Virus record (IMG/VR): IMGVR_UViG_3300028569_000175
Coordinates: 1-23,075 of that record
Strand: one strand, 5' to 3'
DNA length: 23,075 bases
From: a virus
Shown: positions 3,927 to 21,047 of the stretch, piece after piece
How the letters are laid out: every line of letters begins with the position of its first letter
Numbering within the stretch: position 1 is the first letter of the stretch
Made by a program: the position numbers and the translations under genes
The notes under the pieces: model-generated
What the model saw: only the letters and a program-made list of their open reading frames with translations
Database searches by the model: none
Told to the model about the DNA's origin: nothing

Positions 3927-4838
3927 TTAAGACGGGAGCGAGCCCCAGATAGCGCGCCAATTGTAGTAGCCAAACGAGTAGCGCTCGTAACCCTTCACCA
4001 GAAGGTTGTCGGTCACGAAGTCCACCTGCATGTCCGTCTCGAACTTGATGCGTTCCATGTACGACAGGCCGTCGATGTTGGTCAGCAGGAACCAGTTGCG
4101 CGACGAGGTCAGGAAGTCGTTAGTGAGGAACCCTTCCGGCAGACCGCCGCTGGTGCCCTTGATCGCGTTCACGTCGTTGTCCGCAGTGCCCGGGCGCAGT
4201 TCCGTCTGGGTGAGGCGGATGGCAACCGGCTCAAGCTGCGGGGGAACGACGAGCTTGCGGGCACGCGCGAAGACCTTCAGACCAGCCTGATCCTTGAAGC
4301 TCGTACGAACCGAGATCATGCCGTTCAGCAGGGTGGCTTCGTTCAGGTCCACGTCAACCGACGGACGGTTGGCAACAGTGCCGCCGTCAATCGGGTGGGC
4401 GGTGCTGATCAGAGACACGCCATCACCGCCAACGCTGTTGTTGTACGTGGTGGCCGTGTTCAGGATCGACGCGCCGTAGATTTCCTTGGTCTGCTGGAAG
4501 CTCTCGATCAGACCGAGGTTCGACGGGTGGAACTGGGTCTTGTAGAGGTTGTCATCAATCGCCTTGCGAGTGATGGCATAGCCCAGACCGATTTCCACGT
4601 GTTCCTGATTGTACACGTAGCGTTCGCCAGCGCCGTTGTCGAAAGCGGTCTGGCCGCCCTCGGTCTTCAGCTGCGCGAGGCCGAGGTACCGCATTTCGGC
4701 GGTACGCTCGAGAGCCATCTTGCTGTCGTGCTTAGTGAAGATCTTGTCGTACTGAGATGGGATCATCTCGTACTTGCCCTCAACGCCCCGCAGACCGGGG
4801 AGGAGAAGGTCTTTGATTGCTGAAAGATTAACAGCCAT
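3927..4838 (-). CDS. Major capsid protein (HK97-fold, gpT-like)
   Basis: This 303-residue protein is the likely shell subunit. It begins MAVNLSAIKDLLLPGLRGVE and includes EMIPSQYDKIF, a charged helical segment near 45-60 and a YVYNQEHVEIGLGYAITRKA stretch (about 74-93). It also has the LFARARKLVVPPQLEPVA-like strand block (here VFARARKLVVPPQLEPVA, about 189-206). The ending YERYSFGYYNWRAIWGSLPS is typical of the last strand of gpT-like capsid proteins, where R-W/Y-rich termini are common. Length suits an HK97-fold subunit without a large N-terminal delta domain, and a separate scaffold candidate lies upstream. AGGAG precedes the ATG. It is transcribed with the 319-aa structural protein, probably from the promoter at 5910-5938. 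Confidence 0.88.
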   Translation of the reverse strand: MAVNLSAIKDLLLPGLRGVEGKYEMIPSQYDKIFTKHDSKMALERTAEMRYLGLAQLKTEGGQTAFDNGAGERYVYNQEHVEIGLGYAITRKAIDDNLYKTQFHPSNLGLIESFQQTKEIYGASILNTATTYNNSVGGDGVSLISTAHPIDGGTVANRPSVDVDLNEATLLNGMISVRTSFKDQAGLKVFARARKLVVPPQLEPVAIRLTQTELRPGTADNDVNAIKGTSGGLPEGFLTNDFLTSSRNWFLLTNIDGLSYMERIKFETDMQVDFVTDNLLVKGYERYSFGYYNWRAIWGSLPS

Positions 4839-7826: not shown

Positions 7827-8011
7827 CAACGTTTTAAGACATTCTCACGTGCTGCCTCGAGCAAGGTCAGCGCCATGCGCAACCCCTCGATCTGCCCTGT
7901 GAGTTTTTTGTAGTCCTGCATGTCAGCCAGCAGGCCAGCGCAGACGCTGTCACGAAGCGCCTCGATATTCTGCTCGATGAGCTTCTGAAGCTCCGAAACA
8001 AGCCTCTCCAT
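7826..8011 (-). CDS. Small coiled-coil protein (61 aa)
   Basis: The product MERLVSELQKLIEQNIEALR followed by a second helix ending LRMALTLLEAARENVLKR is almost wholly helical with heptad-spaced Leu/Ile, so it should form a helical hairpin or dimer. GGAGAGAGT precedes the ATG at 8011. Its stop overlaps the start of the co-chaperonin gene by one base, indicating translational coupling. It resembles small proteins often found between portal-cluster and capsid-cluster genes. Function is unknown; it could be an assembly accessory. Confidence 0.66.
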   Translation of the reverse strand: MERLVSELQKLIEQNIEALRDSVCAGLLADMQDYKKLTGQIEGLRMALTLLEAARENVLKR

Positions 8012-8038
8012 ACTCTCTCCGTCTCTCCATATTTGGTT

Positions 8039-8072
8039 GGGGGCGAGGCTCTGGAGAGAAAACCCCGCCCCC
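8039..8072 (-). other. GC-rich hairpin in a 91-base intergenic gap
   Basis: GGGGGCG and CGCCCCC pair around a 20-base interior loop in the gap between the Gly-Gly-rich 404-aa gene and the 61-aa gene. On the minus strand it is followed by AACCAAAT rather than a T-tract, so it is not a standard terminator. It may stabilise the upstream mRNA or act as a weak pause site. Confidence 0.4.
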
Positions 8073-9338: not shown

Positions 9339-11417
9339 TTACGGGCGTCCCCGTTTAAGCTGCCTTGCGATTTTCACGGCATTCTGGACAGCATCAGTGC
9401 CGAATTTCGTGTCCCCAGCCACTTTTCCACCTTTAGCATAGATTTCGCCTGTTATAATCCGCTTCAAAGCGTCTTCAGGCGCAATTCCATGCACGGCAGC
9501 GCGTGAAGCTATGTGATCAGCAAGCATTTCGATCTTGGGAGCACCGATTGGAGAGGTAACACCGGTAGAACCAGAGCCAGCGCCCCACAAACGCCCCTGC
9601 GCAGGCACAGATTGCAGACCAACCTGAGCAGCAATTCGATTTTTGAACCATGGCGCGACCTGCTGGTACTCGGGCATTTTCATCGAAACGCCCGGGTCGG
9701 AGCTTGTCCGCGTGTCGCCCATGCCAAGGATGCGGGTAAAGTGCGCGTCGGGCACCGGCAATGTAGTTTGAAATCCTGTCTGAGGCACGCCAGACGCCGG
9801 AATGTAGGTCGGCACTTTTGGAGTGCCCATGTCTACCTTGCCGCTCTGAAGAAAACTCTTCATCGGTCCGGAATGCGCGGTAGGATGGTACATGTGGCCA
9901 ACGACATCGCGAATATCTTCGGGGAAATCAGCCCCACGCCTGCTTACCGGAAGCCCGGCATACTTTTCAAAATCACCAAAACGACCCTTGCCAGCGAGGT
10001 AATATGCCGCCATGCCGCGATTAATCTCGGTTGGCACCTCAGACCCGGGGCTCGCCATGCCCGTCAGCGTGTTTTGCATGATAAACCGCCTCTTAGCCTC
10101 TTCGGGGCCAAGTTCAAGCTCCATGGCCCGGTAAAGAGGGTTCATAACGTACCACGCATCCATGCCATGGCGCAGGACCTGATGCTTTCCGGCCTCGTCA
10201 AGAATATCGATCAGGCGCTGCTCGTTCTTTTTATTTATAATCTTTTCGGTGGCCGCAGACCCCTTCGGGTTGGGGGCCATGGCGAGGCTGGGCTCCATAT
10301 TTCCCACGCGGTTTTCAGCCATGTCGTAAAGATCAGCGCGGGTAACGTTGAAAAGCTTCTTCAGGTTTGGGCTTTCAGGGGCAACGCGAGAGGCGGCTTC
10401 AGCCGCCATCTGCCTTGGGTTGCCGTAAATGCCGGGATATTCGTATCCAATAGGATCTTTAACCGTAGTGCGGCCAAAGCCACCACCGCCGCTAGGCGGC
10501 TTGCGCCCAGACGGGGTCATGCGGTTATAAATATAAGACCGCTCAACATCGCTTAGCTTGTGGAAGTCGGCTAATTTTTCGAGGTTGAACCGGTAGCCTT
10601 GCTCCTGCGCCGCCCGCGTAAATGGTGCAGCAATGTTATCGACAAGCCCTCGGAATAGATCGGATGGCTCGCCGGAGCTTCCTTGAAGCCGTGCGCGAGC
10701 GCTCTGTCCACCCACGACTTTTTTGAGGTAGTCTTTTGCATCTGTGAGATCCCCATTCGTGCGGGCCATAAAACGTTCAGGCATATTAGCAGCCTGACCG
10801 ATGGCCGCAATGTCATCGACAAATTTATCGTGCTCTTCATCGGGCCCAAAATGGGAGAACTTTGCTGCCTTACCATCCCGAGTGAACGTAAGGTCGCGGC
10901 CACGAGCGGACGCTTCCTTCATGATGCTCATGCGCTCAGCAGGCGACAGCGTCTTGCCGTTGCCGAGAAGCAGGGTCGGCGTGCCGGACTGAAGATCAAC
11001 TTCCGGGTGGTGGATTGAATGCACTGCCGCATCCTGCAACATCCCAAACCCAAGGGCCGAAGCCAGCCGCTTTGCCTTTTGGGGGGTCATGTTGGGGGCG
11101 TCAATGGTAAACGAAGGCTCTGGTTCCCCCAGCCACGTCCCCGTCACAGGCGTGATCGTGTAGTCACGGACGCCAAAATGCTTGGCCACGAAGTCTCGCA
11201 CGCTTTTGCCATCAAGGATCTGCAACGCTGAGCGCGACACCGCGTCAATGTTTTCCTGATTGATAGTTTTGCCTGAGATCTGGCCGTAATTAACGCCGGG
11301 CTTGGGCGAAACCTGCGCTGCCGGGACGTTTTCCCTTGAAAATGTCTCAGCCAGCTTCGACGGCTTGAACGACTTGGCCGCAGAAAGCGCCTGAGAAATT
11401 TTATTGTCGTCGTCCAT
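9339..11417 (-). CDS. Large virion-associated protein with C-terminal Gly-Gly tag (692 aa)
   Basis: The ATG at 11417 overlaps the stop of the upstream gene (TAATG), with GAGGCGG just before it. The first 60 residues look disordered. A compact alpha/beta segment with LLLGNGKTLSPAERMSIMKE and DLTFTRDGKAAKFSHFGPD follows in the first third. The second half has conserved-looking phrases, including QVLRHGMDAWYVMNPLYRAM, MASPGSEVPTEINRG and WFKNRIAAQVGLQSVPAQGR. These match uncharacterised phage proteins encoded beside portal genes. The C-terminus carries YAKGGKVAGDT and then a basic helix, NAVKIARQLKRGRP, a tag pattern found in its neighbours. An ejected or internal virion protein is the best inference; the fold is not recognised. 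Confidence 0.64.
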   Translation of the reverse strand: MDDDNKISQALSAAKSFKPSKLAETFSRENVPAAQVSPKPGVNYGQISGKTINQENIDAVSRSALQILDGKSVRDFVAKHFGVRDYTITPVTGTWLGEPEPSFTIDAPNMTPQKAKRLASALGFGMLQDAAVHSIHHPEVDLQSGTPTLLLGNGKTLSPAERMSIMKEASARGRDLTFTRDGKAAKFSHFGPDEEHDKFVDDIAAIGQAANMPERFMARTNGDLTDAKDYLKKVVGGQSARARLQGSSGEPSDLFRGLVDNIAAPFTRAAQEQGYRFNLEKLADFHKLSDVERSYIYNRMTPSGRKPPSGGGGFGRTTVKDPIGYEYPGIYGNPRQMAAEAASRVAPESPNLKKLFNVTRADLYDMAENRVGNMEPSLAMAPNPKGSAATEKIINKKNEQRLIDILDEAGKHQVLRHGMDAWYVMNPLYRAMELELGPEEAKRRFIMQNTLTGMASPGSEVPTEINRGMAAYYLAGKGRFGDFEKYAGLPVSRRGADFPEDIRDVVGHMYHPTAHSGPMKSFLQSGKVDMGTPKVPTYIPASGVPQTGFQTTLPVPDAHFTRILGMGDTRTSSDPGVSMKMPEYQQVAPWFKNRIAAQVGLQSVPAQGRLWGAGSGSTGVTSPIGAPKIEMLADHIASRAAVHGIAPEDALKRIITGEIYAKGGKVAGDTKFGTDAVQNAVKIARQLKRGRP

Positions 11418-13729
11418 TACCGCCTCGTGAGGTTGCGGGCCAGCGCCATGGCTTTGTGTACCATAGGATTGTCGTTTAGAGCCATACCGCCGCGCTTGTA
11501 CATCGGAAGGCCCTTCTTGACGGCGTCCCGCATGCCGTCGGTGATTTCGAGGGCGTGCCCCTTGTAGCCCTCAGTATCGTCGCCACCCGACGCAGACGGC
11601 AGCGCGTGCGAGAACATTTGCACCCCGGGATGATCAGGGTCTAGGCTCTTGGCCAGCTTGTTCATCTGGGTCGGCAGGATCTGATCGTAGAACGACTTCA
11701 TGCCGCTCCCCTGCTCCCCGTCGAGGCCGTACATATCGGCATTCGCCTGCCCGGGGGAGAGCACCAGCTTGTTGTAGCCGCCGTTTACCGCCTCGGTGAG
11801 CGCATGCTTGAGCGCGAGGCTAGTCCATCCCTGCGTTGAATTGACAAAGGGGCCCTGCGGCGGCTTGTCGGGGCCAGACGGACCATTAGCGCTTGTATCC
11901 TGAAATCCGTGCTTGCGCCCTGCCTGCGCCCAGTCAGACTGGATCTCCTCGACGTGCAGGGCTCGCGGGGCCTTGTAGCCCTTCATCACATTGTTGCGCC
12001 AACCCTTAGCGCGGGACAGGTTCTGCGCCTCTTCCTTGGTGATGGTTCCTTTGCTCAGCGCCAAATCAGCGGCGCCACTGCCCCAGTTGGCGGGCTCAGA
12101 TCCGAGGGACTGGGTGAGACCGGGGTCGGACAGCATCTTCTCGACTGTTCGATCATGCGCCTCTAGGTCGGGTGGCTCGATGCGGTCGCCCATGCGGATG
12201 TGCGCCACCACATTCTTGTGGCCGGGCCAGTGCTTTTGCTCCCTGAAACTGTAGCTGGTCTCGGGTATCTTCAGCAGGTGCTCCCGGTAATTGACGCTCC
12301 CGGGCAGGGTGTAATCCTCGAACTGAGCGGGCTGCTCAGCGTCGGGATCGGATGCGTCGTAGCTGGAGTGGTCTTCGCTCAGCAGCTTATCCACACCGAT
12401 GTTGGGCATCTTTCTGTAGAAGTGCTGGAAGAGTTCCTCCGAGGTCACGCTGGGCTTGCCCGAGAACGCCTCGTCGAAGCCTGACTGGGTGAACTCCTCG
12501 GGCTTGACGCCCGCCTTTGCCAGCATGGCGCGCATCTGCTGCGGGGAGCCCTTCTTCTGGCTCAACTGCCGCGCAGCTTCGGCGCCACGAGAGTAGAAAT
12601 TCTTGAAATTGACGACCCGCTCAGGCAATTTTCCGGTTGCGCCACCGTCGGCATAGCCAATGCTGCCCCCATCAGCCTTATGAGCCTCAGTTTCGAGCCC
12701 CGGAAAGCCCATGGCGCTCATGATCTGCGCCACGGGATGGGTGGAAACGTGGTTTGGCTCGATTTTGCCGCCGGTTGCAGCGTGCTGCATGGCCTGCATC
12801 ACGTCCTGATGCGTGGTTTCCTCGTCCCCGGCCTTATCCCACACCGCATGATGCGCCAGATGCTGGTAATATGGCGACAATTCCTGCGGGAGCGACAGGT
12901 TCATCGCTTCCTGACGCGTTGCGAGGCGATTTACGGCCTCAGCACCGCCCTCGACACCCTTCCGGGCGACATACCTCAAGGCCTCTTTTGCCGGATTGCC
13001 GGTGTGGAGGATGATCTGGCGGGCATCGAGCGTTGGCTGGTCCCCGCGACCCATCAGGGAGGCCACAAAGCCGCTCTTGGATGGCCCAATGCCACGAATG
13101 TTCTTGGTAAACGCCCGCCACTCGTCCGGCGTGCTCGCCTTTTCGCGCCCGGCGGCCACCAGCTGCGAGACCTGACCCTCTTTGCCGGGCAGGTTCCCCG
13201 CCGCCCAGCGTAGGGCGTCGATCAGGTCGTTGTCCTTACCAAACGGCTTCATCACCTGAGCCGCGTTCTGGATGGCAGCCTCGTGCTGCTGCCCCTTTTC
13301 GGCGGCGTCCAGATAGGACTGCCCTGCCGGTGAGTGCAGCCACTCCCCAAACGCACCCTCGGGCCTGATCTTGCCCGTGATGTTGGGCGGCAAATCAAAG
13401 CCAGCAGCGCGCAACTTGTCCGAGTTGATGGCCTGACGCTGGATGCTCGCGCGCGTGATCGTGTAGGCCTTGATCAAATCCCGAGGCCTCAGCCCCTCGC
13501 GCGCTGCGCGCTGCGCTGTCTGGTCCATGAACTGACCAAAGCTCAGGACATGGGACGGGATTTCGCTGAGGCCGCCAAGCTTGGCCTGCACGTCCGCAAG
13601 CGGCTTCCACTGCCAATCCTCGAGGTTCTTGGTCTTGGGGTCGGTGTAACCGCCAAGAAGGCCCCCGCCTGCCTTCCCGGGGCGATACGCCTTTGCGGTC
13701 AGGAGGGCCTTGCGGGTGATCTTCTTCAT
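11417..13729 (-). CDS. Polyvalent virion-associated protein with helix-hairpin-helix-like segment and C-terminal Gly-Gly tag (770 aa)
   Basis: Two modules are visible. Residues about 80-315 are helical and contain IRGIGPSKSGFVASL (211-225) followed by TLDARQ (233-238). This is the spacing of the hairpin and catalytic Asp in HhH-GPD DNA glycosylases (GxGP then Asp about 20 residues on). Residues about 390-745 match a domain common in phage polyvalent proteins: AMLAKAGVKPEEF with SVTSEELFQHF, NVVAHIRMGDR, HVEEIQSDWAQAGRKHGF, then LALKHALTEAVNGGYNKL and a final GMRDAVKKGLPMYKRGG. Between them is ADGGSIGYADGGATG. The end, KRGGMALNDNPMVHKAMALA, is a Gly-Gly tag plus basic helix. Polyvalent proteins are generally thought to be delivered into the host with phage DNA. 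The ATG overlaps the portal stop (ATGA). Module boundaries are by eye and enzymatic activity is unproven. Confidence 0.68.
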   Translation of the reverse strand: MKKITRKALLTAKAYRPGKAGGGLLGGYTDPKTKNLEDWQWKPLADVQAKLGGLSEIPSHVLSFGQFMDQTAQRAAREGLRPRDLIKAYTITRASIQRQAINSDKLRAAGFDLPPNITGKIRPEGAFGEWLHSPAGQSYLDAAEKGQQHEAAIQNAAQVMKPFGKDNDLIDALRWAAGNLPGKEGQVSQLVAAGREKASTPDEWRAFTKNIRGIGPSKSGFVASLMGRGDQPTLDARQIILHTGNPAKEALRYVARKGVEGGAEAVNRLATRQEAMNLSLPQELSPYYQHLAHHAVWDKAGDEETTHQDVMQAMQHAATGGKIEPNHVSTHPVAQIMSAMGFPGLETEAHKADGGSIGYADGGATGKLPERVVNFKNFYSRGAEAARQLSQKKGSPQQMRAMLAKAGVKPEEFTQSGFDEAFSGKPSVTSEELFQHFYRKMPNIGVDKLLSEDHSSYDASDPDAEQPAQFEDYTLPGSVNYREHLLKIPETSYSFREQKHWPGHKNVVAHIRMGDRIEPPDLEAHDRTVEKMLSDPGLTQSLGSEPANWGSGAADLALSKGTITKEEAQNLSRAKGWRNNVMKGYKAPRALHVEEIQSDWAQAGRKHGFQDTSANGPSGPDKPPQGPFVNSTQGWTSLALKHALTEAVNGGYNKLVLSPGQANADMYGLDGEQGSGMKSFYDQILPTQMNKLAKSLDPDHPGVQMFSHALPSASGGDDTEGYKGHALEITDGMRDAVKKGLPMYKRGGMALNDNPMVHKAMALARNLTRR

Positions 13730-18110: not shown

Positions 18111-18325
18111 GGGGTCTCTCCATTGGTTTTCGGTTCTGTCTTAGCGTCGGGCGAAGCCAAAACCATGGCTGGACGGCCCCGTGCCTCCAGCAGCTTCATC
18201 AGCCGCCCGCTCATCTCCAGCAGCCCGATCAGCCGCGAAACCTCGGCGTTGAGGCGGGCGATCTCGGCGTCCTTTTTATAAATCTCGGCGTACAGTTTGT
18301 CGACGTAGTAGTCGTCGGTGATCAT
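18098..18325 (-). CDS. Small leucine-zipper-like protein (75 aa)
   Basis: Counting from the ATG at 18325 (MITDDYYVDKLYAEIYKKDA), residues 10-45 form a regular coiled coil (EIARLNAEVSRLIGLLEM) and the last 25 residues are polar and probably disordered. GGAG lies 11 bases upstream of this ATG. A GTG at 18361 would add 12 residues but lies inside the upstream coding region and lacks a clear site. It overlaps the following gene by 13 bases. A dimeric accessory protein near the terminase is possible. Function is unknown. Confidence 0.6.
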   Translation of the reverse strand: MITDDYYVDKLYAEIYKKDAEIARLNAEVSRLIGLLEMSGRLMKLLEARGRPAMVLASPDAKTEPKTNGETPCLT

Positions 18326-18354
18326 TTCTGGCGTTCTCCGTGAGGGGTGAGGTG

Positions 18355-18738
18355 CTACCACAGGTCTTCCGAAAACAGGTGGGGCGGAGCGCTGAGCTTT
18401 TCGACCTGCCCCGCCATCGAAGCTATCCGTGCCGCTTGCTCGCGTTCAACGAACCGGCCCGTGTTTGTCAAGAAGCCCTGAACGTGCGCCTCAATGGCAC
18501 GCCCCGGATGCACCTGATCGATTGCCCAGAGCACATGATGATGCCGGGCTGGAGACGGCAGGTGCCAGACTTCCTCATCGAAGATAACGGCGGCAGCGAT
18601 GATCGCCTCGTCTATTGAGCGGGGCTGCGGCACGTAGGGCCAGCCGTTATGCCAGATGCGAGCGGCGGGGATCGTCCCCTTCGCGATCTCCACGGCCTCC
18701 TTCATCGCGCCTATCAGGCGGTTCCCGGCATCGGTCAT
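18355..18738 (-). CDS. Conserved phage protein of unknown function (127 aa)
   Basis: The second half has phrases I know from a widespread but uncharacterised phage family: EVWHLPSPARHHHVLWAI and VQGFLTNTGRFVEREQAARI, ending AGQVEKLSAPPHLFSEDLW. The three consecutive His and the Arg-rich surroundings could bind nucleic acid or metal, but no catalytic role is known to me. The ATG at 18738 has GGGAGAG at good spacing and is preferred to the GTG/ATG candidates further upstream, which would read into the non-coding gap. It heads a short series of genes running into the large terminase. Confidence 0.73.
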   Translation of the reverse strand: MTDAGNRLIGAMKEAVEIAKGTIPAARIWHNGWPYVPQPRSIDEAIIAAAVIFDEEVWHLPSPARHHHVLWAIDQVHPGRAIEAHVQGFLTNTGRFVEREQAARIASMAGQVEKLSAPPHLFSEDLW

Positions 18739-19018
18739 ACTTCTCTCCCAGTGAAGGTGCCGGTCGCGACCCGAGGAGTAAGGGGTCCACCGGCTGACGG
18801 GGTTATTGCCCACTCGCCGTCTAACAGCCCTGCTGCAAAACCCGGGGGATAAGCCGGGCCACCATGACGCCCCCCCAGCAGGTGGGGATCAGGTAATTGG
18901 ATTGACGCGTCCGGAGTTCCGAGGGAAAGAGCCCCGGACGCGTTTTTTGGGTGAATGCTGCGCACATCCCTCCCAAATGTGGGAGCGCCCGACATCTCCA
19001 GAGCCGGGCGCCCGCAGG
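18739..19018. other. 280-base gene-free, hairpin-rich gap
   Basis: No convincing gene is seen between the 104-aa and 127-aa genes. The gap holds three clear stem-loops: CTCCCA-aatg-TGGGAG (18970-18985), GCGCCCG/CGGGCGC (18985-19011) and the large hairpin at 18905-18943. It also holds a CCCCcagcaggtGGGG element near 18872-18885 and a CCCGGG. An 86-codon minus-strand ORF spans it (18735-18995), but its third codon positions lack the strong GC bias of the genes around it and it would read through the hairpins. Packaging sites (cos/pac) often lie near terminase genes, so this gap is one candidate for such a site. Confidence 0.5.
18905..18948 (+). terminator. Strong terminator-like hairpin pointing rightward, opposite to the neighbours
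   Basis: ACGCGTCCGG (18905-18914) pairs perfectly with CCGGACGCGT (18934-18943), and on the plus strand TTTTTT follows at 18943-18948. Read on the minus strand the stem is followed by CAATCC, so the T-tract works only for rightward transcription. No plus-strand gene lies upstream of it in the window. Confidence 0.6.
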
Positions 19019-19333
19019 CTACGCCCTCTTTGCGAGGGCTGCCTTGATGACGTTGACGGTCAGGACGACCGACGCCGTCGACTTGCTGTTCGCTGCGATC
19101 CAGTCGGCGCCAAGCTCAGCCTCAACGGCCTTCTTGTTGAGCGTCTTGGTCTCGCGCAGGGCGAAATTCACGTAGAAGGTCTCGCCGTCGATGCGGTCTG
19201 CGGCAGCGTTGCGAGCCTCGAACTCAGCGCGCACGGCGGCCTTGGCCTCGGTCAGCGCCTTGATCTGGACGTCGAGGTCGCCGTAGAGGTCGGCAAGCTG
19301 GGCGAGCGAGTGGTTACGGAACTGGCTGGTCAT
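19019..19333 (-). CDS. Small coiled-coil phage protein (104 aa)
   Basis: Residues 8-45 form a helix or coiled coil (LYGDLDVQIKALTEAKAAVR). The second half has a strand segment GETFYVNFALRETKTLN and the phrase NKKAVEAELGADWIAANSKS, then VVLTVNVIKAALA. This layout is typical of small uncharacterised phage proteins in which an N-terminal helix precedes a substrate-like beta segment. A start at 19333 is likely, but the upstream sequence has only a weak ribosome-binding site. Its neighbour on the right is a plus-strand gene, so it is read divergently from that. Function unknown. Confidence 0.66.
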   Translation of the reverse strand: MTSQFRNHSLAQLADLYGDLDVQIKALTEAKAAVRAEFEARNAAADRIDGETFYVNFALRETKTLNKKAVEAELGADWIAANSKSTASVVLTVNVIKAALAKRA

Positions 19334-19397
19334 GATGGTCTCTTATCCGTGTTGTGGCACTTGATTGCGCCTATGGGTTTGTTCTAGAGGATAGCTC

Positions 19398-19601
19398 ATG
19401 ACAACGCAAGCGAATAATTCGAGAAAAAAACGAGGCCGCCCTGCCATCGGGATCGGCGTGCAGGTCAACGTCATGGTGCGCCCCGGATTGGGCGATGCCA
19501 TCGACCAGTACGCTGCTCAGACAGGGCTCAAGCGCACCGACGCCGTGCGGCGCCTGATCAAGCTCGGCCTTGCCGCGTACAACGCCAGCCTCACCGAGTA
19601 G
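19398..19601 (+). CDS. Ribbon-helix-helix DNA-binding protein with AT-hook-like tail (67 aa)
   Basis: This is the only convincing plus-strand gene in the window. GAGGAT lies seven bases before the ATG. The N-terminus SRKKRGRPAIGIG (8-20) contains RGRP, the AT-hook core for AT-rich minor grooves. It is followed by a beta strand VQVNVMVRP (21-29), helix A (30-42) and helix B KRTDAVRRLIKLGLAAY (45-61), the pattern of the Arc/MetJ/CopG ribbon-helix-helix fold. Such proteins dimerise and place the strand pair in the major groove, usually over short repeated half-sites. It is convergent with the small terminase gene (six bases between stops). The repeats at 20235-20470 are possible targets; this link is untested. 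Confidence 0.75.
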   Translation: MTTQANNSRKKRGRPAIGIGVQVNVMVRPGLGDAIDQYAAQTGLKRTDAVRRLIKLGLAAYNASLTE

Positions 19602-19606
19602 TCGGA

Positions 19607-20128
19607 TCAGTTCGCCAAACCCTCGTCGTCCTCGCCGTCGTCTTCCTCCACCTCGTCGATCTCTTCGCCCTCAGCGATGATCTCCAGCGCCTCCTCGAGG
19701 GCATCCAGCGCACGTGCAGAGAGGTGATCGATGCTCAGCGTCGTGGTCACGTCCATCTCGATGGGCGCGCCATGCTTGCCGCTGAGTTCAACGCTCTTGT
19801 TCTCGCGCCAAGACTTCGGAAAACGGGCAGCCATCGAGCGGGACCAAACCGACGAATTGAAGCCCGGCGTCCACAAAGCCTTCTTGCCCTGCGCTGCCCA
19901 CCAGACCTCAGCTTTCTGCTCGGCACGTTCCATAGCGCGTAGAAATTCTGGATACTGCGCCATCCAATTGTAAATTGTTTTTACAGTGGTATCGAGCGCA
20001 TCGGCGATGTCGACCTTCGACGCGCCGTCCTGCCCCATCGCAATCGCTATCTCGCAAAACTCGGGCTTGTAGGCTGACGGTCGACCGAGCGGCAGGCGGT
20101 CTTCCGGCTTCTTCCGTGGGGTTGCCAT
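19607..20128 (-). CDS. terS: Terminase small subunit (DNA-packaging recognition protein)
   Basis: The 173-residue protein starts MATPRKKPEDRLPLGRPSAY at an ATG with a perfect GGAGG five bases upstream. Residues 35-57 (GASKVDIADALDTTVKTIYN) form the helix-turn-helix expected for site recognition. Residues 60-100 (EFLRAMERAEQKAEVWWAAQ) give a helical oligomerisation region, and the C-terminus (150-170) is very acidic. In the family this subunit binds the packaging site and loads the large subunit. A longer frame to 20245 exists but would begin in a region without a site and with low coding character. The gene lies immediately downstream of the origin-like gap and convergent with the ribbon-helix-helix gene. 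Confidence 0.84.
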   Translation of the reverse strand: MATPRKKPEDRLPLGRPSAYKPEFCEIAIAMGQDGASKVDIADALDTTVKTIYNWMAQYPEFLRAMERAEQKAEVWWAAQGKKALWTPGFNSSVWSRSMAARFPKSWRENKSVELSGKHGAPIEMDVTTTLSIDHLSARALDALEEALEIIAEGEEIDEVEEDDGEDDEGLAN

Positions 20129-20234
20129 ATCGGCCTCCTTGTTGCCCCGAATATAGCGTGCCGGGCATGCCAATGCACCCCCCTCTCTCCGCACCCCTCG
20201 CCCGACCCCTCGTCCCCCCATTTTTGTCGGGATC

Positions 20235-20261
20235 GGTGTTAGCACTGTTAGCGGTGTTAGC
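20235..20261. repeat. Three tandem 9-bp repeats (GGTGTTAGC type)
   Basis: GGTGTTAGC, ACTGTTAGC and GGTGTTAGC follow one another with no spacer, so the period is exactly nine bases. The first and third are identical and the middle one differs at two positions. Copies of the same word occur at 20388-20396 and, on the other strand, at 20462-20470. Confidence 0.85.
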
Positions 20262-20280
20262 CCCTCCCTTTTAGAGCCCC

Positions 20281-20370
20281 TATTAAAACCCTTTTATCTG
20301 AGAACATAGAGATAGAGTAAACACTGATAACAGTGATATATAATCATATATATATATCATATTTTACAAG
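20281..20370. other. AT-rich core with nested dyads
   Basis: About three quarters of these bases are A or T, in contrast to the GC-rich genes around. It contains the dyad CACTG-ataa-CAGTG (20322-20335), an ATATAT-rich run (20336-20360) and an outer inverted repeat AAACCCTT (20286-20293) with AAGGGTTT (20368-20375). The layout is that of an unwinding element, though an operator is also possible. Confidence 0.6.
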
Positions 20371-20387
20371 GGTTTACGCCTTCCAGC

Positions 20388-20470
20388 GGTGTTAGCAGAC
20401 CCCCCGTAAACTTTGATCGATGTTAGTACTAACACCGACGTTTTTGCCCCTCCTGCCCTCTGCTAACACC
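20388..20470. repeat. Dispersed GGTGTTAGC copies and a 14-bp palindrome
   Basis: GGTGTTAGC is at 20388-20396. TGTTAGTACTAACA, a perfect 14-bp palindrome, is at 20421-20434 and joins two inverted half-copies. GCTAACACC (the reverse complement) is at 20462-20470. Together with the tandem trio this makes about seven copies or half-copies in 236 bases. Confidence 0.75.
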
Positions 20471-20498: not shown

Positions 20499-20520
20499 AA
20501 AAAAGGGGCCAAATGGCCCC
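20499..20520 (-). terminator. Rho-independent terminator of the early block
   Basis: On the minus strand GGGGCC-ATTT-GGCCCC is followed by six T residues. It lies about 45 bases after the stop of the 83-aa helix-turn-helix gene. On the plus strand the stem is followed by TAATTTTC, so weak bidirectional function is possible. Confidence 0.83.
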
Positions 20521-20565
20521 TAATTTTCAGGTCGAATAGCCCGTTTTTGGGCCATCAAAAAGCTC

Positions 20566-20817
20566 TCAGGTCGACGTCGGTGCCGTACCCGTAGACGCTG
20601 TTTTGGACCATGGTTTTCGCTTCATGAAGAGCGCCCCGCAGGCGAAATCCGTCCTGCAGTCAGCGCCACGCTTCTTCATCAGCCAGAACCCCTGCCGGGT
20701 GATCCCAAGCAGGGCGGGGAGGTCTGCCTCCCTCTGCACGATGCCCTTTTCGACCATAGCCAGCGCCCACGCCCTGAAGTCGTCTGCGCTCATGGTTGTC
20801 TTGGGAGACTTGCTCAT
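20566..20817 (-). CDS. Helix-turn-helix regulator (Cro/XRE-like, 83 aa)
   Basis: Residues 10-52 (SADDFRAWALAMVEKGIVQR, then EADLPALLGITRQGFWLMKK) have the helix-turn-helix layout of small phage regulators, with LLGITRQGFWLMKKRG as the recognition segment. The C-terminal 20 residues (KPWSKTASTGTAPTST) look disordered. Its ATG overlaps the stop of the upstream gene by four bases, with AGGA nearby. It is the last gene before the terminator and the 9-mer-rich region, a typical position for a protein acting on that DNA. Target and direction of regulation are not shown by sequence alone. Confidence 0.75.
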   Translation of the reverse strand: MSKSPKTTMSADDFRAWALAMVEKGIVQREADLPALLGITRQGFWLMKKRGADCRTDFACGALFMKRKPWSKTASTGTAPTST

Positions 20818-21047
20818 TCGTCCTGTGCCTTCGTCGTGTCGCCGTATCGATCCTGCATCTGCCGCATCAGGGTGTCGATCTCCTTTGATGTGGCCAGATG
20901 CATCTCGTCCATGTCGGAGACGCTGCAGGGGATCTTCAATTGCCTCAGCTTGCGCGAAAGGCGGAGCGCGGGGATCGGCCTCATGATAAGGGCGCGAGGT
21001 GCCTTGCCGGGCTCTGTGTACTCAACGGTGCGTATGTTGGAGGTCAT
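20814..21047 (-). CDS. Small protein of unknown function (77 aa)
   Basis: This basic N-terminal, acidic C-terminal protein reads MTSNIRTVEYTEPGKAPRAL at the start, then IPALRLSRKLRQLKIPCSVS and MDEMHLATSKEID, then TLMRQMQDRYGD. It is mixed alpha/beta with a single Cys. The sequence before the ATG is purine-rich (AGAAAAGAAAAAC) but lacks a strong GGAGG. It is coupled by a four-base overlap to the helix-turn-helix gene, so the pair is probably one translation unit. No family is recognised. Confidence 0.6.
   Translation of the reverse strand: MTSNIRTVEYTEPGKAPRALIMRPIPALRLSRKLRQLKIPCSVSDMDEMHLATSKEIDTLMRQMQDRYGDTTKAQDE

Follow-up and report, generated by a model that had tools for sequence, protein, structure and literature searches.

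Seven short iterons around an AT-rich core form a candidate replication origin upstream of the small terminase gene in an uncultured phage group

The origin of EcCICFT073, a Gram-negative phage-inducible island of E. coli, is needed for, and supports, plasmid maintenance (PMC6092414), and for SaPI Rep and SCCmec Cch2 it is the C-terminal domain of the initiator helicase that binds the iterons (PMC7581432). The locus that we compare with these systems is the gap upstream of the terminase small subunit gene (terS) in the viral record IMGVR_UViG_3300028569_000175, of which positions 1 to 23,075 were analysed (hereafter the window, a partial contig of 23 kb; the primase-polymerase, or Prim-Pol, gene of its phage group falls outside its coverage). 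We infer that this gap is very probably an iteron-type origin of DNA replication, a reading supported by the conservation of its repeats, by iterons of this class at primase and helicase gene 3' ends in many other elements, and by an architecture shared with tested origins (P4, EcCICFT073). An earlier note on this DNA, made from the letters alone, had proposed either an origin or a master operator, and these three lines of evidence favor the first over the second. For an uncultured phage group this amounts to a specific candidate origin that can be tested.

Repeat array and AT-rich core

Seven sites of the form TGTTAGY (where Y is C or T) fall inside 232 bp of the gap, compared to 12 in the whole window, while the largest cluster in 2000 local Markov shuffles held 3. 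The seven-fold array described in the earlier note therefore stands up to the comparison with shuffled controls that was suggested there. The array consists of regular-pitch direct repeats, namely three cores spaced 9 bp apart (set A), together with four further sites (set B) that include a 14-bp palindrome, TGTTAGTACTAACA, which is perfect and made of two half-copies as had been claimed. The tandem copies had also been described as exact 9-mers, of which the exact 9-bp pitch is retained but not the unit: because the middle copy reads ACTGTTAGC and relatives have other flanking dinucleotides, we take the repeat unit to be the 7-bp core TGTTAGC rather than the 9-mer. When the 9-mer GGTGTTAGC is nevertheless counted with one mismatch allowed, as had been proposed, the window holds 8 matches against 3.7 expected, and 5 of the 8 are in the gap. 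Other clustered 7-mers of the window and of the related contig G004 lie mostly within coding stretches, except for the low-complexity ATATATA of the AT-rich core, and Rfam and tRNA scans gave no match.

The two iteron sets flank the AT-rich core, set A on its left and set B (20390-20468) on its right, and the same layout is found in G004. The composition of the core agrees with the earlier estimate of about three quarters A/T (Table 1), and no stretch of G004 or G005 is more AT-rich than the one that matches it (77.5% and 80%, respectively). An outer inverted repeat around the array, also described previously, is present in the window (20227-20244/20461-20478 at 89%, and 20385-20399/20459-20473 at 100%), but the stem as such is not conserved, the match of the arms being down to about 10 bp in G004 and about 7 bp in G005 in an alignment read by eye.

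Table 1. Coordinates of the features in and around the gap (positions in the window)
Feature	Position	Strand	Remark
Terminase small subunit gene (terS), left of gap	19607..20128	-	PHROG 309 terminase small subunit, E 3e-24
Iteron set A, three TGTTAGC cores at exact 9-bp pitch	20237..20261	+	20237-20243, 20246-20252, 20255-20261
AT-rich core, 76% A/T, candidate DNA unwinding element	20282..20361	.	most AT-rich 80-mer of the window
CTCTATCTCT word inside the AT-rich core	20308..20317	-	short, may be chance
Iteron TGTTAGC, set B	20390..20396	+	conserved in G004, G005, G006
14-bp perfect palindrome TGTTAGT/ACTAACA, two abutting iterons, set B	20421..20434	.	
Iteron TGTTAGC (GCTAACA on +), set B	20462..20468	-	conserved in G004-G006
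Intrinsic terminator closing the upstream operon	20504..20521	-	stem kept in relatives
83-aa gene, last of the upstream operon, right of gap	20566..20817	-	open reading frame (ORF)

Recurrence in relatives and in other elements

The gap upstream of terS is kept in three near-identical contigs (L005-L007), in G004 (55.6 kb), and in G005 and G006, and its alignment in these related phages, another of the checks proposed in the earlier note, shows that the iteron cores mostly stay as the flanking letters change. The three set A cores of G004, for example, are kept as GCTAACAtcGCTAACAttGCTAACA with different flanking letters, and the counterpart of the palindrome there is TGTTAGTGCTAACA. A further phage, L111 (Prim-Pol 56% identical), carries six TGTTAGY sites upstream of its own terS.

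When 2.9 million viral contigs were scanned for TGTTAGC three times in a row at 9-bp pitch, 14 stretches matched, and several unrelated viral stretches have extra sites, mostly in both orientations (L029/L034/L037/L041, L035, L036 and L039). A search with a mixed-orientation pattern added L114, L115, L116 and L117, with no cluster of more than 3 sites in the reversed control. The first of these sets (L029/L034/L037/L041) is a single phage group, whose array lies upstream of terS. At other loci the sites accompany replication genes: a Toprim/AAA_25 primase-helicase gene of L116 has the array at its 3' end, the L039 cluster lies in the 3' part of an AAA_25 helicase gene, and the sites of L084, a bacterial genome, in a Prim-Pol gene, while in each of two Rhizobiales bacterial genomes (L098 and L101) 9 sites lie within or next to the 3' part of a helicase gene. 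The helicases of the latter two (AAA_25 at L098; at L101 the locus ends within the gene) have a C-terminal winged helix. An abutting iteron pair is also seen in L116, and in L126 and L204 with their own word. The complete 38.8-kb phage MW202483.1 (L371:28224-28490) has about 10 TGTAAAC iterons near its terminase boundary, a cluster that is likely its origin; its primase shares 52% identity with the primase of the L034 group, yet TGTAAAC takes the place of TGTTAGC.

The relation between word and initiator was also read in reverse, from ten homologues of the L098 helicase picked by protein similarity alone. A TGTTAGC cluster was found at none of the ten, and six had another clustered word around the gene 3' end (GGTAACA, 13 times; GGTAATA; CGATAAG; GATAACC; TGTCACA; GGTAAGA). 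Different words thus occur at the same gene 3' end, so that it is the word that varies and the position that goes with the initiator. In Sinorhizobium phage AP-16-3 and Rhizobium phage RHph_TM3_3_14B, which share about 27% Prim-Pol identity with G004, TGGAATT iterons flank each side of an AT-rich stretch that lies immediately beyond the 3' end of the Prim-Pol gene. The CTCTATCTCT word of the window is matched at 10/10 letters in the AT core of this putative origin in AP-16-3 and partially in RHph_TM3_3_14B.

The one-letter variant TGTTACC was chosen after it had been seen in L126, which means that the choice followed the data, and it gave at least 120 triplet matches. Raw triplet counts were rejected as evidence since the reversed word reached 12 against 14 for TGTTAGC and a shuffled word 109, mostly in-phase simple repeats. 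What discriminates is the presence, within 400 bp, of two or more additional sites on the opposite strand or out of phase, found for 86 of the 120 TGTTACC matches listed and 5 of 14 for TGTTAGC, as compared to 1 of 12 for the reversed and 3 of 109 for the shuffled word. The genome collection yielded 46 matches, most of them like simple repeats, and only 3 with two extra sites. With gene calls in the fetched loci that are crude ORF picks, the TGTTACC clusters (at least 88) divide into 46 that touch or overlap an ORF of at least 250 aa at its 3' end, 5 within such an ORF, 1 at a 5' end and 36 unclassified. The families represented among 41 long ORFs near the clusters are DUF927 (15), DUF5906 (7), Cch HTH (helix-turn-helix; 7), Toprim_3 (7), VapE (6), AAA_25 (5) and Prim-Pol (3), besides D5 and others. 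The AT-richest 50-mer belongs to the top 5% of the locus by A/T content for 56 of 61 distinct clusters, and the commonest same-strand pitch is 9 bp (171 of 275); abutting palindromes are not common among these clusters. In E. coli SA186, a phage-satellite-like element has a TGTTACC cluster on the 3' side of a DUF927 gene (L370:4459-4650), and this query region was matched in 449 of 5426 E. coli genomes.

It is possible, and we put it forward tentatively, that TGTTA[G/C]C at 9-bp pitch is an origin word common to phages, prophages and satellites with replication proteins of different families (DUF927, DUF5906, AAA_25, VapE, Prim-Pol). Iteron origins are already a known kind, and the wider surprise would be a near-identical iteron word in unrelated initiator families; literature searches on the iteron words with "iteron" or "origin" returned nothing relevant. 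If the word is truly shared, either a recognition module has been swapped between initiators or there has been strong convergence on one word, which would bear on the exchange of initiator DNA-binding domains and on phage-satellite interference, and the window phage would be a case of an origin away from its initiator, at the terminase boundary. The pattern also suggests a rule for finding origins in phages and satellites, namely mixed-orientation words of 7-8 bp at 9-bp pitch around a local AT maximum.

Candidate initiator and competing explanations

The likeliest initiator is probably the Prim-Pol/DUF3987 protein, with the iterons read by its C-terminal winged helix. The G004 protein has 788 aa, its C-terminal 81 residues are predicted to form a winged helix (predicted local distance difference test, pLDDT, 85), and the best Foldseek matches of this C-terminus are winged-helix DNA-binding proteins, with modest E-values. 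An AAA_25-type winged helix was considered as the reader in the window group and dropped, as a search of the group proteins found none. In the mechanism that we propose, the phage initiator would bind the three TGTTAGY iterons of set A and the four of set B, the abutting inverted pair among them, and the complexes on both sides would melt the AT-rich core between them. The helicase ring of the initiator would then be loaded at the melted core, where its primase-polymerase domain would begin DNA synthesis. Near the Prim-Pol gene of G004 there is also a gene for a GcrA-like cell-cycle regulator (L043:1154-1762; PF07750, E 1.8e-21), which points to an alphaproteobacterial host.

Several observations weigh against an origin at this place. 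The array in the window phage group adjoins terS instead of the Prim-Pol gene: in G004, where a single iteron cluster is seen, Prim-Pol ends at 4569 and the sites are at 11219-11450, with no iterons 3' of the Prim-Pol gene, so that the position directly 3' of the initiator gene typical of phage-inducible chromosomal islands (PICI) and SaPI is not found there. The middle tandem site and the palindrome have decayed in G005 and G006. No TGTTAGY occurs in the 22 kb of L112 (Prim-Pol 32% identical), which may use another word, and MW202675 (TerL 64% identical) was checked and lacks the array; the helicase of MW202675 is absent among the Prim-Pol relatives listed. Lastly, the inflection in cumulative GC skew that the earlier note had suggested looking for does have its minimum near the array, at 20868 in the window and at 10770 in G004, but it is weak, with an amplitude within the random-walk range for such a length.

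The main rival explanation, which we consider unlikely, is a packaging (cos/pac) site at which TerS, through its N-terminal HTH, would bind the repeats that immediately precede terS. In lambda cosB the R sites occupy the corresponding place, as repeated sites upstream of the small terminase gene, although they are longer and tied to packaging, and we know of no recurrence of them at replication genes. Consistent with such a site, TerS does have an HTH, and the array directly precedes terS in the window, in L111 and in the unrelated L029/L034/L037/L114/L115 group, which also bears out the position at the early/packaging boundary given in the earlier note. Equivalent arrays in many elements are found, however, at primase and helicase genes and not at terminase genes, with few of the latter near TGTTACC clusters (TerL-nuclease, 3 of the 41 ORFs), and the iteron words differ with the replication protein. 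TerS is moreover less conserved (44% between the window and L111) than Prim-Pol (56% for L111), and its HTH helix differs where the word is kept.

Quite improbable, in our judgment, is a late-promoter operator or activator site, where a phage regulator would bind the repeats and turn on terS and the structural genes. The intrinsic terminator ends the upstream operon, so terS transcription must restart within the gap; with the gap isolated in this way a terS promoter is expected inside it, and inverted half-sites do look like operators. Yet none of the genes next to the gap was identified as a known repressor or activator, the genes on either side have the same orientation, and 46 of the 52 classifiable TGTTACC clusters are at gene 3' ends and not at promoters, the clusters elsewhere lying mostly 3' of replication genes, so that the operator or switch of the earlier note is not sustained as the primary function. 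An operator may still act as a second function beside the origin. A stem-loop origin of the pRN1 type, with a cruciform of the outer inverted repeat as the signal instead of the iterons, is very improbable: the strand folds better than shuffles (z -5.1) and pRN1 has a Prim-Pol type initiator with a stem-loop origin 3' of its gene (PMC4234260), but the 15-bp perfect arms shrink to the lengths given above without compensating changes (by eye), and most iteron cores stay where the stem does not.

Beyond the array, family searches with the product of the 83-aa gene gave no match. In the window no equivalent was seen of the 146-aa ORF that lies beside terS in G004 (12061-12501) and G005 (1382-1822). 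The window also encodes a 770-aa protein (11417-13729) whose start resembles that of its 673-aa counterpart in G004 (18118-20139), and the window version seems to have an extra region near the N-terminus, a possible domain gain or loss. A small group of CTCTCCA/GGAGAGA words occupies the same place, at the start of a short gene, in the window (8004-8059) and in G004 (23677-23731).

Comparison with described origins

Read as an iteron-type origin, the gap differs from those of SaPI Rep and SCCmec Cch2 in words and proteins, and in that their origin is directly downstream of the helicase gene. The EcCICFT073 origin resembles the gap in its layout, with the word TGTCTACC twice at 9-bp pitch plus an inverted copy, but it lies directly 3' of the primase gene and belongs with another initiator family, whereas in the window, from a phage of about 55 kb, the array lies upstream of terS. 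Phage P4, whose alpha protein is a primase-helicase, differs in its word (TGTTCACC), in the domain make-up of alpha, which is unlike Prim-Pol/DUF3987, and in having crr as a second cis region where G004 shows one cluster only. Like the gap, however, P4 ori1 and crr have short type I iterons in both orientations, with tandem runs at a pitch of about 9-11 bp, near AT-rich DNA, and ori1 lies some kilobases from the alpha gene, which is the same arrangement of a remote initiator as in the window group.
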